From Bacteroidota bacterium (GTDB lineage: Bacteria > Bacteroidota > Bacteroidia > Flavobacteriales_E > Vicingaceae), in NCBI GenBank assembly GCA_013112545.1, contig JABFGJ010000010.1, positions 62,001 to 126,000 of the forward strand: 64,000 bases of DNA, read 5' to 3'. The notes beneath the pieces are model-generated. The model saw only the letters and a list, made by a program, of their open reading frames with translations, searched no databases and was not told where the DNA came from. Shown here one piece after another: positions 11,557 to 18,352 of the stretch. The position numbers and the translations under genes were made by a program. Within the stretch, counting starts at the first letter, position 1. Each line of letters starts with the position of its first letter.

Positions 11557-11751
11557 GGTAGGTTATGTTTGTAGTTGAAACATACCGAACTCTATTGAAG
11601 TTATTGTTTGAGAGAGAGCAAAAATTATCAGTTAGGCATTTAAAATCCGCTAGATAGCTTATATTTGGAATTAAAATAAAACATTTGGACAAAAGGGGAA
11701 TAAACGTACCTTTCGCTTTATTTGGATGTTGTGTTTCATGCTAAGAGAGAC

Positions 11752-11855
11752 CGTGCAACAAATGCCAACGCACATTTGGCACATTTGCAAGCCCTAACCC
11801 ACAAGCTGATGCTTCAGCTTGCAAAAGAGCCAAATTTTTGCCGACGCACTTTGAT
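11752..11855. repeat. structured spacer element with nested stems and a direct repeat
   Basis: The arm 11776-11791 (TTGGCACATTTGCAAG) pairs with 11818-11833 at 14 of 16 positions. A competing perfect hairpin is CAAGCTGA (11802-11809) with TCAGCTTG (11814-11821). TGCCAACGCACATTTG (11763-11778) recurs as TGCCGACGCACTTTG (11839-11853). Similar words (ACGCACAT, TTGCTTAAAGAGC) occur after the 1287-residue gene at 16.2 kb, so the element seems to bracket that module. Confidence 0.55.
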
Positions 11856-11867
11856 TCGATATATTTG
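11837..11867 (+). promoter_or_regulatory. predicted promoter of the 4-TM/1287-aa operon
   Basis: TTTG (11837-11840), exactly 19 nt, TATATTTG (11860-11867), a full match to the Bacteroidota -33/-7 consensus, 23 nt before the ATG at 11891. The -33 box lies inside the structured spacer. The boxes and the flanking TTTTGCC and TATATTTGA are shared with the parDE promoter. Confidence 0.65.
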
Positions 11868-11890
11868 AATAATATGATACAGGAAAATAA

Positions 11891-12295
11891 ATGGAAAAGA
11901 AAAGTAGATTTTTAGTTTGGTTAATATTTGGTTTACTTCTCTCGATATTACCAATTACAGCCTCAATATTTTATTTAATAGGTCTTGACACTACAGGTAT
12001 GACTTGGGGACAAGCTTTTTATAAAGTTATATCAAAAGGTGAATTATTATTAGTTTGCTTTTCAATTCTAGGTGCAAATGTTGCAGATTTACTAAATAGT
12101 GAATGTTCAAATAGTTTAGCTCAAAAGACCTTAATAGGTTTTTCTCTCTTCCTTTGTTTTGCAATGATTTTTCTGTTTCCTGTAATAAGCACCAATCAAA
12201 CATTTGATAAGGATATTTCATTTAATGTATCATGGATATTCTTGGTTCTTAGTACCGTAATGTGTTCAATTTCCTTATTAACTGAAAGAAAATAA
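11891..12295 (+). CDS. small four-helix membrane protein of unknown function
   Basis: 134 residues with four clear hydrophobic segments at about 7-30, 48-67, 78-100 and 108-129, short loops and a charged N-terminus (MEKKSR) and C-terminus (TERK). No family is recognised. It begins 23 nt after a consensus promoter, and its stop is one base before the ATG of the 1287-residue gene. The two are therefore almost certainly co-expressed and may act together at the inner membrane. Small multi-helix membrane proteins paired with large cytoplasmic proteins are common in defence modules, where they act as membrane effectors; that role is only an inference here. Confidence 0.75.
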   Translation: MEKKSRFLVWLIFGLLLSILPITASIFYLIGLDTTGMTWGQAFYKVISKGELLLVCFSILGANVADLLNSECSNSLAQKTLIGFSLFLCFAMIFLFPVISTNQTFDKDISFNVSWIFLVLSTVMCSISLLTERK

Positions 12296-12296
12296 C

Positions 12297-15200
12297 ATGG
12301 TAGAATTAATAACAATCATATCAATCATAGTCACAATTATTGGTGCCTTCATTGGGGTTTATACAATATTTATTGATAAAAGAAAGAAGAAAAAAGAAAA
12401 GGAAGAAACAGAAGCTTACCTTAATAATCGGGAAGTAATACCTTTAATAAATTGGGCAAAACAAAAAAATATTGAAAAAGATTTTTTCTTGCTAATAAAA
12501 CGATTGATTTCTTTATCACCAAATATTGAGATACTAGATGTTGAGGCCTTTGATTTAATCGTCAAATCAGAAAAACAAGATAAATATATTCCGAGTGGAA
12601 TTTCTTGTTGGGAATTAAATACCTCTTTCCCAGAAAATATAAATTTAGAACTAATTAAAAATTGCATAAAAAGAAACATCTCTGAAAATTCTCAAGATAT
12701 TACATTTGTTTTCGTATCACCTTTCTTAATTGACAATAAAGAAAATTTAACTAAAAAAATTGATAAAGGAAATTGGAAGGAAATAATAATATACGATGCG
12801 AAAGATATAACAGATTGGCTTCAAACAGAACCTGCTATTTCTGTATGGTTTGAAATAAAACACCTAGACAATACTTTTGAAGGAGTAGTTTTTCCAGATG
12901 AATATTGGGAAGAGTGGTCAACTGGAACAAATTTTAATTTAAATGCTTCATTAATTCTAGGAGGACGAGAGAAAGAAACATCTCAAATTATCAAAACAAT
13001 ACAAACACCTTCTATTATTGCAATACAAAGCTCCTCTCGTGAAGAATCATTAGCATTTACATTGTCTTGTTTTATTAACCAACCTAGTGAAAAAGATAAA
13101 CTATTATCAAAATGCTTTATTATTGATAGTCCTAGTTCTTTTAGAAAACTAATTGATAAGAATGACCAGTTAATTCTAATACCTAGGTTTGAAGAATCAG
13201 AAATAATAAATCTTGCCTTAAAAAAAGGACACACGGTAATCATCCCAATAGGCTTAGACAACACCATAAATTGGGAGTTAAAAATTGTTTTACCACCGCT
13301 AGACAGGGATATATTTGTTAATTCATTAGTAGAATCGGGCTTTGATAAAAATCAATCAGAAAAGTTATCAATTGAATCAGCAAGGAATATTACAATTCTT
13401 AGGAGACAACTTAAACTTTCTAGAACAATTCCTCAATGGGCAAGTTCAGAAAATGTCAGAGATATTATACCTGCTTTAATTGCTGGAAGGTGGAGTGATG
13501 GTTCCAAAAACGATAGAGAACTAATTTCGAAATTATCGGGAGTGGAATATGAAGAATACATTTTTAAGTTGAAAAAATGGTTGTTAACTTCTGATTCACC
13601 AATTGTTAAAATAGATAATTTTTGGAGGTTAACTTCTCCTTTAGATGCATGGACAAATGCATCTCATTTTTTAATTAATTCTGATTTTGAAAAACTTGGC
13701 GATGCATTTCTAAAAGTTTTATCTGAAAAGAATCCTTCTTTTGAAATTCCAGCAAAGGAAAGAATGTTTATGACGAAAGATGGAGAAGTTTTCTCATCAT
13801 GGATAAAGGAAGGTTTAACACAATCTCTGATTTTAGTTGCTGTTTATGGTGATAAGCTAAAAGTTGATTTACCAGTATCATCTCAACTATGGGTTGATAA
13901 GCTTGTTACTGAATTACTATCCAATGACAACGAATTAATTTGGAAATCTTTTGAAAGACTTTTACCTCAATTAGCAGAAGCATCGCCCAATGCATTTTTA
14001 GAGACAGTTGAAAGACATTTGAATTCTGATAACTCTGTTGTTTTTAGTCTCTTTAAAGAAGAGGAAGGTTTTATTACTCCTTCCAGTTACCACACTGGCT
14101 TACTGTGGGGATTAGAAAATATAGCATGGACTCCAGAATTCTTTGCAAGAGCCTCAATTATTTTAGCAAAACTTGCTGTAATTGACCCAGGAGGTAATCT
14201 GTCAAATCGACCTAAAAATAGCTTAATTGAAATCTTTAAGCCATGGCATTTCCAAACTTTGGCAAGCTACAATGATAGAATGGACGTTTTAGCTTTAATA
14301 TGTAAAGAAGAACCTGAAATTGCGTGGGCTCTTCTTTGCTCTATGCTTCCTGATAACCATTCAGTTGGTATGCCTACACATAAAATGAGATGGCGACTAT
14401 TTGATGAAAAACTAGAAAAGCCAATTACATATGATGAAATCTGGAAAACTCATTCAAGAGTCGTTGAATTATTGATTTCTATTTTTGATGATAGTGAAGA
14501 AAAACTAGCAAAACTCATTGAAGAATCCTCTAATAAAACTCTTTCTCCAAAGGATAGGAATGTTATGATAGATTTCCTTAATTCTAGGCTGGATAATGTT
14601 AAACAAAGCAGTTTTGTCGCTTGGTCTAAATTAAGGGAGATTCTTTCAAGACATAGGTCTCATTCCGATACAGACTGGGCATTACCAGAAGATGATTTGA
14701 AAAAATATGAAGAATTTTATGCACGATTAACTCCTAAAGATGAAATAAATCAAACTTTGTGGCTTTTTGATGACCATCATCCAAATTTACCACAAGGTTT
14801 CAAATACCCAGAAGTGCCTTTTGAGAAACAAAGTCAAGTAATTGATGAGACAAGAACTGAAGCTTTAAAGAAGTTATATTTTAAAGTTGGAATCGAAAAA
14901 ATTATAGAGTTAAAATCAAAAATAAAACAACCGTGGATATATGGTGATATACTCGCTAGATTTTTAGATGAAGAAGAAGCTGTGTTAAAGGTTTGTGAAG
15001 AACTAAAACTTGAAAAAAAAGAATTAGGTTTTGTACAATCCTTTTTTAGTAGAAAATATTATTTAAAGGGGATTGACTGGATTTTTAAATTATTTAACCA
15101 GTTAAAAGAACTATCATATGACAATGAATCTCTTGCAAACCTACTTTTGTCAATTGAGCAAAATCAAGTTTTATGGGATAAACTTGAAACACTTGATAAT

Positions 15201-16160
15201 GGAATAAAAAATCATTATTGGTTAAATATTCACCATCGCTTTTATGGTATGCCTACTGAGCAGTTGGAATATGGTCTCAAAAAACTTATCGAATATAAAA
15301 GATATTACTCAGCAATTGATGCTTCATCTCATAATGTTGACAAGATTTCTCCTGAATTATTAGTGTTAATATTAGAGAAAGCTGCTACAGATGAAGCTTC
15401 CGAAGAAGTAAGAATAGACGGTTATGAGATTAATAGAATTTTTGAAACTCTTGATAAACAAGACAATATTAACAGAGATACTTTGATAAAATTAGAATGG
15501 TTTTATCTTCCATTGTTAGCATCGTACGGCAATAGAAGAAATCCAAAAATTCTTCATGAAGAGTTGGCAACTAATACTGATTTCTTTATAGATATTTTAA
15601 AATGCTTATACAAATCAAAAGATGAATCAATTGCTGAACAAGAAAGTAAAGACGTTGATGAATCTCAAGCACAAAATAGGGCGAGGCAAGCGTATGAACT
15701 ATTAAATGGTTGGAAAAAAATACCTGGAATTGACGAGCAAAACAACATTAATAAAGAGATATTAACTTCTTGGATTAAGGATGTACGAAAAAAGGCAGAT
15801 GAGTGCGGTCGTTTGGATGTTGCAGACATGCACATAGGAAAAATTTTAGCTCAATATCCAGAAGAAAGTGAAAACTGGCCACCTGAAGAAATTGGCGAAA
15901 TAATTGAACAGATAAACACTGATAGTTTAAAGAATAATTTCTCTTCCGCATTATTTAACAAAAGAGGTTCTTCGACAAGAGGAGCTTTTGATGGAGGTGA
16001 TATAGAGCGAGGTCATGCAAAATATTTCGAAAACCTAGCAGAGAATAACAAGAATAAATTTCCAAGAGTTTCTGCAATTTTCAGTAGATTAGCTAAAGGA
16101 TATTATGAAGATGCTAAACGAATGGATAATAGAGCTAAAATAGATAGATTAAATTATTAA
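12297..16160 (+). CDS. large membrane-anchored protein with degenerate P-loop-like region and helical repeats
   Basis: A 1287-residue protein I cannot name. Residues 5-27 form one membrane helix followed by KRKKKKEKEE, which places the rest in the cytoplasm. Residues about 45-215 look like a compact alpha/beta domain with YIPSGISCWELNTS (near 97-109), recalling predicted nuclease-like domains in large accessory proteins, but no complete catalytic set is evident. From about 219 (LILGGREKE) there is a STAND/AAA-like arrangement: a P-loop position reading SSSREES (near 244-250) without the GK[ST] of an active Walker A, then LILIPRF (292-298) and GHTVIIPIG (311-319). About 900 mainly helical residues follow, probably HEAT/ARM-type repeats. 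It is coupled to the 4-TM gene (1-nt gap) and lies between related spacers. Confidence 0.7.
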   Translation: MVELITIISIIVTIIGAFIGVYTIFIDKRKKKKEKEETEAYLNNREVIPLINWAKQKNIEKDFFLLIKRLISLSPNIEILDVEAFDLIVKSEKQDKYIPSGISCWELNTSFPENINLELIKNCIKRNISENSQDITFVFVSPFLIDNKENLTKKIDKGNWKEIIIYDAKDITDWLQTEPAISVWFEIKHLDNTFEGVVFPDEYWEEWSTGTNFNLNASLILGGREKETSQIIKTIQTPSIIAIQSSSREESLAFTLSCFINQPSEKDKLLSKCFIIDSPSSFRKLIDKNDQLILIPRFEESEIINLALKKGHTVIIPIGLDNTINWELKIVLPPLDRDIFVNSLVESGFDKNQSEKLSIESARNITILRRQLKLSRTIPQWASSENVRDIIPALIAGRWSDGSKNDRELISKLSGVEYEEYIFKLKKWLLTSDSPIVKIDNFWRLTSPLDAWTNASHFLINSDFEKLGDAFLKVLSEKNPSFEIPAKERMFMTKDGEVFSSWIKEGLTQSLILVAVYGDKLKVDLPVSSQLWVDKLVTELLSNDNELIWKSFERLLPQLAEASPNAFLETVERHLNSDNSVVFSLFKEEEGFITPSSYHTGLLWGLENIAWTPEFFARASIILAKLAVIDPGGNLSNRPKNSLIEIFKPWHFQTLASYNDRMDVLALICKEEPEIAWALLCSMLPDNHSVGMPTHKMRWRLFDEKLEKPITYDEIWKTHSRVVELLISIFDDSEEKLAKLIEESSNKTLSPKDRNVMIDFLNSRLDNVKQSSFVAWSKLREILSRHRSHSDTDWALPEDDLKKYEEFYARLTPKDEINQTLWLFDDHHPNLPQGFKYPEVPFEKQSQVIDETRTEALKKLYFKVGIEKIIELKSKIKQPWIYGDILARFLDEEEAVLKVCEELKLEKKELGFVQSFFSRKYYLKGIDWIFKLFNQLKELSYDNESLANLLLSIEQNQVLWDKLETLDNGIKNHYWLNIHHRFYGMPTEQLEYGLKKLIEYKRYYSAIDASSHNVDKISPELLVLILEKAATDEASEEVRIDGYEINRIFETLDKQDNINRDTLIKLEWFYLPLLASYGNRRNPKILHEELATNTDFFIDILKCLYKSKDESIAEQESKDVDESQAQNRARQAYELLNGWKKIPGIDEQNNINKEILTSWIKDVRKKADECGRLDVADMHIGKILAQYPEESENWPPEEIGEIIEQINTDSLKNNFSSALFNKRGSSTRGAFDGGDIERGHAKYFENLAENNKNKFPRVSAIFSRLAKGYYEDAKRMDNRAKIDRLNY

Positions 16161-16183
16161 CCAGCCTCTGGAGCCATGCACAT

Positions 16184-16224
16184 TAAGCAAACGCACATAT
16201 CAACCGCACGACCAAATTTGCTTA
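16184..16224. repeat. stem-loop in spacer after the 1287-aa gene
   Basis: TAAGCAAA (16184-16191) is the perfect complement of TTTGCTTA (16217-16224). The loop and flanks contain ACGCACAT, CCGCACGACC and AAAGAGCATG, resembling words of the 11752-11855 element upstream of the same gene pair. Confidence 0.5.
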
Positions 16225-16275
16225 AAGAGCATGTCTCTCCTACGCACGGATTGACAAACAGAATAAAGCACGAAA

Positions 16276-16406
16276 ACACAACAATGTGTATAGTGCATGC
16301 GGGATTTAGTGGTTTTCAGGCGTTTCTGGCTCGTAAAAAAAGTTTGTGTAACTTGATAGGAAATCGTCTCTTAATCCCGCACGACACCATACACTCAACG
16401 TTGGGC
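16276..16406. repeat. attC-like imperfect inverted repeat A
   Basis: The left end ACACAAC (16276-16282) and right end GTTGGGC (16400-16406) are placed like the R'' and R' boxes of an integron attC site; GTTGGGC fits GTTRRRY exactly. Between them the arms pair over about 38 positions with small bulges: TGTAT with ATACA and TGCGGGATT with AATCCCGCA (16372-16380). Bulged bases on one arm are also typical of attC. The ACACAAC box deviates from RYYYAAC at its third base. Assignment as attC is an inference that needs a covariance-model test. Confidence 0.5.
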
Positions 16407-16419
16407 AATTTGAGAAAAT

Positions 16420-16450
16420 TTTGCCATAATACCAATTTTTGGTATATTTG
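16420..16450 (+). promoter_or_regulatory. parDE promoter with embedded operator palindrome
   Basis: TTTG (16420-16423), 19 nt, TATATTTG (16443-16450) matches the Bacteroidota consensus exactly. A perfect 7-bp palindrome, ATACCAA/TTGGTAT (16429-16435 and 16439-16445), lies between and over the two boxes. It is 22 nt before parD, where a ParD dimer binding it would block transcription. Autoregulation is the rule for ParD antitoxins; the operator role is inferred. Confidence 0.65.
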
Positions 16451-16466
16451 AGTAAATTTATTTCAA

Positions 16467-16718
16467 ATGAACAAAAACACATCAATATCACTCGGAAATT
16501 ATTTTGACCAATTCGTTCAAAGCCGAATAAGTGAAGGCAGGTTTAAGAACGTAAGTGAAGTCATACGTGCAGGACTTAGACTATTGGAAGAAGAAGAAAG
16601 TAAAGTCATAGCCTTAAAAAATGCAATACAAGAAGGAATCGACAGTAGAATTGCTCACGATTTTGACCCAAAAAAGCATTTGGAATCTTTGAAGGCGCAA
16701 AAACACTCGAATGGCTGA
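16467..16718 (+). CDS. parD: ParD-family antitoxin (ribbon-helix-helix)
   Basis: 83 residues. The N-terminal ribbon-helix-helix DNA-binding part (NTSISLGNYFDQFVQSRI) is followed by EGRFKNVSEVIRAGLRLLEE, which is nearly diagnostic of ParD antitoxins. An acidic, flexible C-terminal tail (residues about 55-83) would wrap the toxin. ParD neutralises ParE and represses the operon. The gene overlaps parE by 8 nt and has its own consensus promoter with an operator-like palindrome. The pair lies between two attC-like repeats, which suggests arrival as a mobile cassette. Confidence 0.92.
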   Translation: MNKNTSISLGNYFDQFVQSRISEGRFKNVSEVIRAGLRLLEEEESKVIALKNAIQEGIDSRIAHDFDPKKHLESLKAQKHSNG

Positions 16719-17010
16719 ATATAAACTGACCAACAGAGCTGTTGAGGATTTATCGAAGATTTGGGATTATACATTTGAGGTTTGGTCAGAAAAACAAGCT
16801 GACAAATATTACGATGGACTAATTTCTAACTTTGAGGAAATTGTGGAAAACCCAGATTTAGGAAAAAACTACGAAGGGATATCTAAGCAACTTCTCGGAA
16901 TTAAAGCATACCGACACATAATATTCTACAGAACGTTGGATAAAAATTATGTGGAAATAACGAGAATATTGCACGAAAGAATGGATTTAAAGAAAAGAAT
17001 AACCTCATAA
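16711..17010 (+). CDS. parE: ParE/RelE-superfamily toxin
   Basis: A 99-residue toxin of the ParE branch. It shows AVEDLSKIWDYTFEVWSEKQADKYY at the N-terminus, LGKNYEGISKQLLGIKAYRHIIFYR in the core strands, and EITRILHERMDLKKRI at the C-terminus; the HERMD ending is typical of ParE. Known ParE proteins poison DNA gyrase, whereas RelE relatives cut mRNA. The ParD partner and the sequence favour ParE. Its start lies inside parD (8-nt overlap), and its stop is 7 nt before attC-like repeat B. Confidence 0.92.
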   Translation: MAEYKLTNRAVEDLSKIWDYTFEVWSEKQADKYYDGLISNFEEIVENPDLGKNYEGISKQLLGIKAYRHIIFYRTLDKNYVEITRILHERMDLKKRITS

Positions 17011-17017
17011 AAACTGC

Positions 17018-17147
17018 ACACAACTATGTACAAAAATAATAGTTGAAATAGCTGTAATTTCAAGGGTTGCAGCCCGCTACGGCTTTTTCGCATGTTGAAA
17101 AGTTCGCAATCCGCAGTCGGCTACTATTCTTGTACCAAACGTTATGG
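17018..17147. repeat. attC-like imperfect inverted repeat B
   Basis: The left box ACACAAC (17018-17024) is identical to that of repeat A, and the right end AACGTTATGG (17138-17147) has the same AACGTT core. The arms pair less well than in A, mainly GTACAA (17028-17033) with TTGTAC (17130-17135) and ATAGT with ACTAT. Length is 130 nt against 131 nt. GTTATGG departs from GTTRRRY at two positions, so this copy is weaker evidence alone. Confidence 0.42.
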
Positions 17148-17293
17148 GTAATTCCCCACATTAAGAAATCTCAATTAATTTCTATCGCTAACGCCAAATT
17201 TTTTGAGACCGAAAAGGGGTAAATTAGAAGTTTTTTAAAACATAACTAATTGAATTTTAATAACTAAATTGAGTGTTAGTCAGAATTAAACAA

Positions 17294-17731
17294 ATGAGAC
17301 TTATTTTTCTAATTTTTTTCTGTGTTTTTATTTCCTCTCTTCAGGCTCAAGATGAACCAGAAAAGTTCGTGCTAATTGGAAATATGCCAGTACATAAAGG
17401 TTGTGCGAAAATCAAATCAAAATTAGAAAAGCAAAAATGCACGGAAGAAAAGTTAACTGAGTATGAAAAGAAGAACACAGTTTATCCAAGCGGGGCTGAA
17501 ACTGCGAAGTATAATGGATATGTAGATGTAGAATTTGTTATCGGAGAAGATGGTTCGATTATTAAAGACATGACTAAAGTGTTAGCAGGTTTTTCAGGGG
17601 AAGATTCAGACTTATTTAATCAAGAGGCAATTAGAGTTGTAAATAGTTTACCAACTTTAATTCCTGCTTTCACAGATGACCAATTTCATAGGGTAAAGTT
17701 TACTCGTTCAGTTTATTTTAATAGAAAATAA
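17294..17731 (+). CDS. secreted TonB C-terminal-domain-like protein
   Basis: 145 residues from the ATG at 17294. The frame can extend to a GTG at 17273, but MRLIFLIFFCVFISSLQAQ is a clean signal peptide. The mature part has NMPVHKGCAKIK and then GYVDVEFVIGEDGSIIKDMTKVLAG and EAIRVVNSLPTLIPA, the core of a TonB_C domain. There is no proline-rich spanning region, so it is not a complete TonB; short stand-alone proteins of this kind are frequent in Bacteroidota with unclear roles. A conserved-looking Cys pair (near 42 and 55) may form a disulfide. It follows the second attC-like repeat; no further repeat is seen after it. Confidence 0.75.
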   Translation: MRLIFLIFFCVFISSLQAQDEPEKFVLIGNMPVHKGCAKIKSKLEKQKCTEEKLTEYEKKNTVYPSGAETAKYNGYVDVEFVIGEDGSIIKDMTKVLAGFSGEDSDLFNQEAIRVVNSLPTLIPAFTDDQFHRVKFTRSVYFNRK

Positions 17732-17806
17732 AAACGAATTACAAGCATTAGATGAAAACAGTATAAACCGAAATAATCAAATGCCCATTCTAAAATGCTG
17801 CAATAG

Positions 17807-18352
17807 TTACTCTACGATTTGATAGTTTTCCTTAGTGCTAGCCCAGTTGAATAAAAACAATGCCATGGCTTCATCCAATCTTTTCAAAAATAATGGATTG
17901 GGAGAGTTCATGTTTTTAAAATACTCTTCTTGATATTGCCCCAATTCATATTTGTAGAAAAGTGCTTTTGACATAGCATACAAATTATTGTTGGAAGGAA
18001 GGTTTACCCGACTTAAATAACTTTGATAATCCCTTAATATCCCTTCTAGTTTATCAAATGACACATCAAACACTCCTGATAGCTTAGTAATGATCGAATT
18101 GATAACCCTGTTGTCTTGGTGAGCCGGAAGATATTTTGGAATTTCTTTGAGGTTGGCTGCTATTACGATGAGCATAAATTTACTATCGTCCGATGGGTCA
18201 ATGTTAGGACTTACAATAAATTCTGGTGATTCTTTTATTAGTCCAACTATGTCGGTAAAACTTTCCTCAACCGCTTGTAGTGTGGCGTTGACAAATATGT
18301 TTGAGAGTTTATCCTCTTTTAGCTTCTTCTTTCCGAAGATTTTTGTAAACAT
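17807..18352 (-). CDS. hypothetical soluble protein
   Basis: 181 residues, no signal peptide or membrane helix, and a Lys-rich N-terminus (MFTKIFGKKKLKED). The rest is predominantly helical with an AMSKALFYKYELGQYQEEYF segment near residues 126-145. I do not recognise a family. It stands alone on the minus strand with a 163-bp gap to corA downstream, so it is probably its own transcript. The frame is well formed and codon use resembles its neighbours. Confidence 0.65.
   Translation of the reverse strand: MFTKIFGKKKLKEDKLSNIFVNATLQAVEESFTDIVGLIKESPEFIVSPNIDPSDDSKFMLIVIAANLKEIPKYLPAHQDNRVINSIITKLSGVFDVSFDKLEGILRDYQSYLSRVNLPSNNNLYAMSKALFYKYELGQYQEEYFKNMNSPNPLFLKRLDEAMALFLFNWASTKENYQIVE

Follow-up and report, generated by a model that had tools for sequence, protein, structure and literature searches.

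The 64-kb window studied here (the whole stretch of DNA that was analysed) comes from a 3.27 Mb genome of 24 contigs, judged by its relatives to belong to the phylum Bacteroidota, and carries a parDE toxin-antitoxin pair between two hairpin-forming repeats, sites A and B. Our analyses indicated that this locus is very likely a beheaded array of an integron-type system of the Bacteroidota that runs parallel to the classical integrons with IntI integrases. We also consider it probable that the system represents a second, IntI-independent class of integron in the phylum, phylum-wide and with arrays of 100 kb, in which a XerA-like enzyme that lacks the additional domain of IntI would act on sites whose strand identity is coded by fixed G.T pairs and whose ends would pair over ~14 nt across a circular cassette. 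Resistance genes, tet(X3) among them, would have been exported by this class, and the ‘xerD’ next to tet(X3) would be the system's own truncated integrase. An earlier reading of the window, referred to below as the original prediction, had proposed two attC-like sites around a toxin-antitoxin pair with no integrase in sight.

The locus is best read as a beheaded array, a decayed copy of an integron-like system in which an integrase tail and an attI are followed by a 4.7-kb cassette, site A, the parDE cassette, site B and a third cassette. Its parts are as follows:

11557..17806, no strand assigned, whole inserted segment, missing at the same position in relatives
11618..11679, plus strand, decayed 3' tail of an integrase gene (last ~60 bp of the gene, rest deleted), 4.5 kb upstream of site A
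11680..11734, plus strand, attI-like site
11728..16399, plus strand, cassette 1, attI-proximal, 4.7 kb, two open reading frames (ORFs), complementary ends
11891..12295, plus strand, ORF, 134-aa predicted membrane protein, cassette 1 cargo
12297..16160, plus strand, ORF, 1287-aa protein of unknown function, cassette 1 cargo
16276..16406, plus strand, site A, 131 nt, attC-like hairpin closing cassette 1
16400..17140, plus strand, cassette 2, parDE toxin-antitoxin, between sites A and B
16467..16718, plus strand, parD antitoxin (PF03693, E 1.9e-23; TIGR02606)
16711..17010, plus strand, parE toxin (PF05016, E 1.1e-16)
17018..17147, plus strand, site B, 130 nt, attC-like hairpin closing the parDE cassette
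17141..17731, plus strand, cassette 3, the last, with a TonB-C-like protein (PF03544, E 6.6e-8), likely start 17294

The claim that no integrase was in sight proved wrong, as the 3' tail of an integrase gene and an attI lie at 11618-11731 and the source genome has an intact copy of the gene on contig C13. This segment of the window was identical at 110 of 115 positions (95.7%) to the 3' end of the intact gene and its attI. The attI-like site matched the sequence behind that gene at 52 of 53 positions (L080:10369-10421), with more copies on contig C7 and in relatives, and crossover within it is predicted at G^TT, position 11728. In the window, the integrase gene that would stand at the head of the array is present as a remnant only. 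The spacing between lhgO and the gene at 17807 was 7-236 bp in 13 relatives and 6,250 bp in the window; the locus is thus not fixed, and based on this absence this lineage probably gained the segment and later lost the integrase gene, or received the segment already beheaded. On C7, another copy of the integrase tail and attI (L086:1005-1136, 88.6%) has an attC-like site ~8 kb downstream, and is probably a second beheaded array.

The two repeats were found where the original prediction had placed them, on the same strand, both with the boxes ACACAAC...AACGTT, and with the parE stop 7 nt ahead of site B. ParD and ParE are encoded by neighboring, overlapping ORFs and both scored above the Pfam cut-offs, as expected of a ParDE pair. 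A covariance model whose seeds included sites A and B (R1) found only these two sites in the window (98.7 and 83.4 bits). Because of those seeds, a second covariance model (R2) was built from 26 sites of the Persicobacter psychrovividus plasmid pPP2 only, with no site from the source genome. This blind model also found both, site A at 85.3 bits (E 2.6e-19) and site B at 64.7 bits (E 3.7e-14); no unrelated place in the 64 kb scored above 17. The fold was strong in A and weak in B, as had been proposed (bottom-strand z of -2.8 versus -1.5), and the status of site B rests on the homology model for this reason. Close homologs of site A occur in several genera of the family and, within the source genome, on contigs C3 and C7; site B matches repeats of pPP2 at 77% identity over 137 bp. 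When the source genome was searched, then read in stretches around the matches, R1 found 13 sites in all at E<=5e-5, some adjoining accessory genes. A pattern in IUPAC letters for site A, which was too narrow, had no match in the source genome. On C3, a cassette (L082:10969-11855) contains, as judged by eye, a MerT-like gene and behind it a heavy-metal-type domain.

The pPP2 plasmid (NZ_AP025294.1) contained the largest display of this arrangement, with ~130 sites over ~100 kb, all on one strand and nearly all behind a short gene. The array lies at about 302500-404592 and 1-700 of the record (L050-L053). Arrays in one orientation, with each cassette closed by one attC-like site of ~130 nt and standing behind an attI beside an integrase gene, were found in pPP2, in genomes G078, G086 and G221, and on C13 of the source genome. 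R1 sites (at least one each) occurred in 112 of 198 sampled Bacteroidota genomes and 68 of 103 genera; 17 candidates were scored per genome, such that per-genome site numbers are lower bounds.

In an alignment of 33 sites, 86.4% of the cells were paired versus 28-39% when the partners were slid, and double changes numbered 169 versus 51.7 in shuffles, which indicated covariation. Two arm positions very rarely formed standard pairs on the top strand (non-standard in 29/33 and 31/33), their letters being mostly A and C. At these two fixed positions and at one position of the outer box, an A.C mismatch on the top strand corresponds to a G.T pair on the bottom one, which is why the bottom strand folds better. 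Among 60 distinct pPP2 sites, mismatches that were G.T on the bottom strand outnumbered those that were G.T on the top strand by 135:16. Judged by covariation and folding energies, the sites are thus imperfect palindromes whose bottom strand is favored, as is expected of attC. That they sit directly behind genes and fold would also be consistent with transcription terminators or gene-end RNA elements whose link to a recombinase is coincidental. We regard that explanation as highly unlikely since the favored strand is the bottom one, opposite to the cassette transcript, no Rfam family matched anywhere in the window, sites included, and the complementarity of cassette ends across whole genes described below would be useless in a terminator.

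The two ends of a cassette were complementary to each other. Among 51 distinct cassettes of pPP2, the 7 nt following the 5' GTT agreed with the reverse complement of the cassette's own 3' box at 6.3/7, versus 2.5/7 for the box of the preceding site and 2.6/7 for shuffled pairings. The corresponding values for 70 cassettes of other genomes were 5.4/7, 2.7 and 2.4, and perfect matches to the preceding site numbered none and one in the two sets, respectively. The agreement spans ~14 nt with an interruption at position 11, where the 5' end has mostly A and its partner G, that is, a G.T pair on the bottom strand. Complementarity of this length is expected if the two ends of a cassette meet in a circle. 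In circular sites rebuilt on this basis the bottom strand was more stable in 151 of 159, by a mean of 3.6 kcal/mol, and 144 of 159 folded better than the integrated form. In the window, the ends of cassette 1 are complementary in this way, with GTTGTGTTT-CA-TGCT at the 5' end and AGCA-CGA-AAACACAAC as the 3' box. A non-autonomous transposon, or a REP/MITE-like repeat flanking genes by chance, would account for repeats that are dispersed and palindromic with a conserved center. However, repeats and genes alternate in one orientation ~130 times in pPP2, the boxes match across the gene and not across the repeat, and a recombinase gene stands at the array heads, all of which make such an element very improbable.

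The intact tyrosine-recombinase gene of the source genome is at L080:9206-10366 on C13. The pPP2 array is headed by a tyrosine recombinase of ~380 aa, read across the origin of the record, which is missing from the record's gene table because the gene crosses that origin. The recombinase gene is oriented like the cassettes in the source genome and pPP2, and is also at the array head but divergent from the array in G078, G086 and G221. Eleven recombinases shared the expected active-site residues, R240, K265, H329, R332, H355 and Y364 in the numbering of the source-genome protein. The four proteins scored against curated models passed or nearly passed NF040815 (XerA; 219-226 versus a cut-off of 220) and failed TIGR02249 (integron integrase; 191-203 versus 265), with positions 180-238 of the latter model unmatched. 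Matches to TIGR02249 in relatives had been considered as IntI and were dropped, all being under the cut-off and split. In alignment with VchIntIA of Vibrio cholerae (PDB 2A3V), 67 residues (180-246) faced 24 between aligned blocks in the G221 protein, which indicated the absence of the IntI additional domain. The predicted structure fitted both XerA-type recombinases and VchIntIA over residues 108-361. It shares the fold of VchIntIA (Z 19.3, rmsd 3.6 over 253 residues) and the conserved tyrosine-recombinase residues, although nothing of comparable length corresponds to residues 180-246 of VchIntIA. The best sequence and structure matches were to XerA-type recombinases (NF040815, PDB 5HXY and 4A8E); XerA, however, is known as an archaeal Xer recombinase and not as an enzyme of cassette arrays, whereas the genes described here are at array heads. 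These sequence comparisons place at the head of the cassette arrays a XerA/IntI-type tyrosine recombinase that lacks the additional domain of IntI.

At 80 recombinase loci obtained by a scan of genome contigs, R1 found 65 sites, all pointing away from the recombinase. Loci with sites were 21 of ~37 in Bacteroidota and none of ~43 outside the phylum. The co-oriented recombinases have an extra N-terminal domain of ~90 aa (residues 13-88 of the L080 integrase), arranged strand-strand-helix-strand-strand-helix-strand. It had no significant match in Pfam, where HARP (E 0.087) is a lead only, and was barely covered by the structure search.

Integrons have already been reported from Bacteroidetes/Bacteroidota (PMC8618304, PMC9668308), and Salinibacter ruber is the complete integron case named by IntegronFinder 2.0 (PMC9024848). 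The window could accordingly be viewed as a classical integron cluster without integrase (CALIN), comprising ordinary attC sites with a true IntI lost or located elsewhere. The general layout would be the same, and true IntI scored above the curated cut-off in 57 of the 198 Bacteroidota genomes, which corrected our impression that the phylum was without it. We nevertheless consider a CALIN improbable. True IntI was found in neither the source genome nor 40 relatives, and among 49 sampled genomes of its own class IntI was present in 1 and R1 sites in 38. A model of 18 classical attC sites (R3), used as a stand-in for the attC model of IntegronFinder, had no match in the window at E<=10; R3 recovered held-out classical sites in L221, L226 and L227 and gave two borderline matches in R1 arrays. 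Conversely, R1 had no match in class 1 integron regions of plasmids, and among 20 true-IntI regions, many of them with classical attC (RYYYAAC-AAGCG...), its only strong match was in G045, in a separate array. These data indicated that the IntI/attC type and the system represented in the window are distinct, sometimes within one genome. In L221 (G045:C1:1201000-1220999) an array of the new type and a true IntI with a classical attC site are no more than 10 kb apart.

The original prediction was therefore right in seeing an integron-type cassette of the Bacteroidota that carries a toxin-antitoxin pair and has an altered R'' box, ACACAAC in site A. The three checks named with it also came out in its favor, as both sites matched a covariance model, more sites occur in the genome with some beside accessory genes, and 13 relatives do not have the insertion. 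The view of the repeats as classical attC with a slight box change did not hold, given the result with R3 and a recombinase without the IntI-specific domain. Across 232 sites YAAC and GTTR were nearly invariant and R' position 5 was T in 48%, such that the family does not conform to the attC consensus RYYYAAC...GTTRRRY. As in a classical integron, there are a tyrosine recombinase at the array head, an attI, small cassettes (here toxin-antitoxin) and hairpin sites with AAC/GTT ends, a predicted G^TT crossover and a favored bottom strand. By contrast, the recombinase is without the additional domain, the R boxes are NNNYAAC and GTTR(N)6, the two ends of each cassette pair over ~14 nt, strand asymmetry comes largely from fixed G.T pairs, the site models scarcely cross-recognize, and some members have the co-oriented recombinase with the extra N-terminal domain. 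Together, these features suggest that the system works like an integron yet fails defining features of the IntI/attC type on which it was tested.

Independent support for the attC-like nature of the sites was provided by a group II intron. Contigs C1, C8, C15 and C18 of the source genome end in an identical 118-nt sequence joined at R'' to an attC-like site, and C13 ends in a group II intron (RF02001; L080:11353-12986) with a reverse transcriptase (TIGR04416, 382 bits). We read the 118-nt sequence as the 5' end of the C13 intron, based on its GTGTG start and the joining point. There are thus four identical intron 5' junctions in the R'' of four sites, with target letters TTGT at two and ATGT and GTGT at the others. 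Group IIC-attC introns insert in R'' on the bottom strand of attC at TTGT/T (PMC7923331). The intron described here similarly occupies R'' of attC-like sites and lies on their bottom strand, against the direction of the cassettes, but its target is TTGT at two of the four junctions only, and its assignment is to group II, without the IIC subclass. The multi-copy intron breaks the assembly at five contig ends (L080, L081, L084, L085 and L087), and the array of the source genome is therefore probably larger than it appears in the draft.

A ‘xerD’ gene adjoins tet(X3) in Acinetobacter plasmids (PMC7530245). We found that this ‘xerD’ is a 5'-truncated member of the recombinase family, nested among Bacteroidota proteins (98% SH-aLRT). 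The tet(X3) segment starts at GTTATGTGCC in two contexts: it follows an attI-like stretch in the Acinetobacter plasmid and an attC-like site in a plasmid of Empedobacter. From this box on the two copies are 97.5% identical over 1,283 bp, with breakpoints at GTT, and the Empedobacter copy has an R1 site on each side (37.8 and 23.5 bits). The contexts are those of Acinetobacter baumannii NZ_CP104348.1 (L180:6052-8101) and Empedobacter brevis NZ_CP043635.1 (L186:512-2033). These observations suggest, without proving it, that tet(X3) moved as a cassette of the system. The contexts of tet(X4) and tet(X6) contained no R1 site.

Based on these findings, we infer that a cassette would excise as a circle and that the recombinase would cut the folded bottom strand at G^TT and insert the cassette at attI, as IntI does, with circular intermediates and recombination of a single strand. 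In a duplicated or transferred copy of the integron, the integrase gene would have been deleted down to its last ~60 bp; attI and three cassettes would remain, and any new movement of these would depend on the intact recombinase on C13. By analogy with proposals for other integrons, parDE probably stabilizes the array against loss.

Several observations weigh against this interpretation. The 5' box of the parDE cassette matches its own 3' box at 2/7, which looks like damage to the 5' box, and the cassette may be immobile as a result. About 16 of the ~37 Bacteroidota recombinase loci were without a site, many of these being at contig ends, and the array-bearing recombinases do not form one clade. 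Cross-recognition is possible in some genomes because these also hold true IntI. In addition, strand choice was judged solely from sequence and folding energies.

The IntI-specific additional domain near patch III is regarded as defining and necessary for an integron integrase (PMC9668308), and a large array system without it makes that necessity testable. If our interpretation is correct, the cassette content of a whole phylum may have escaped tools made for IntI/attC, and a source and a route would be at hand for tet(X3), which confers tigecycline resistance and whose ‘xerD’ neighbor is otherwise unexplained. Our search of open-access literature, preprints and subscription papers aside, found no paper describing this system, and given that coverage priority is not certain.

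The 134-aa protein of cassette 1 had no family in Pfam, NCBIfam or PADLOC and the 1287-aa protein none in Pfam or NCBIfam; a single, insignificant PADLOC match of the latter was dropped. Cassette 3 had no recognizable attC at its 3' end. Positions 17137-17294 are 91% identical to the sequence behind the last attC of the array on C3, and for this reason the third cassette probably begins there. Lastly, a second recurring, hairpin-like element, GCCATACACATTxGCAA...TTGCxAAAGAGxATGGC, was observed in the window at 16160-16276 and 11745-11850, the latter near the start of cassette 1; elsewhere it also lies directly before some attC-like sites (L003, L006), as it does before site A.
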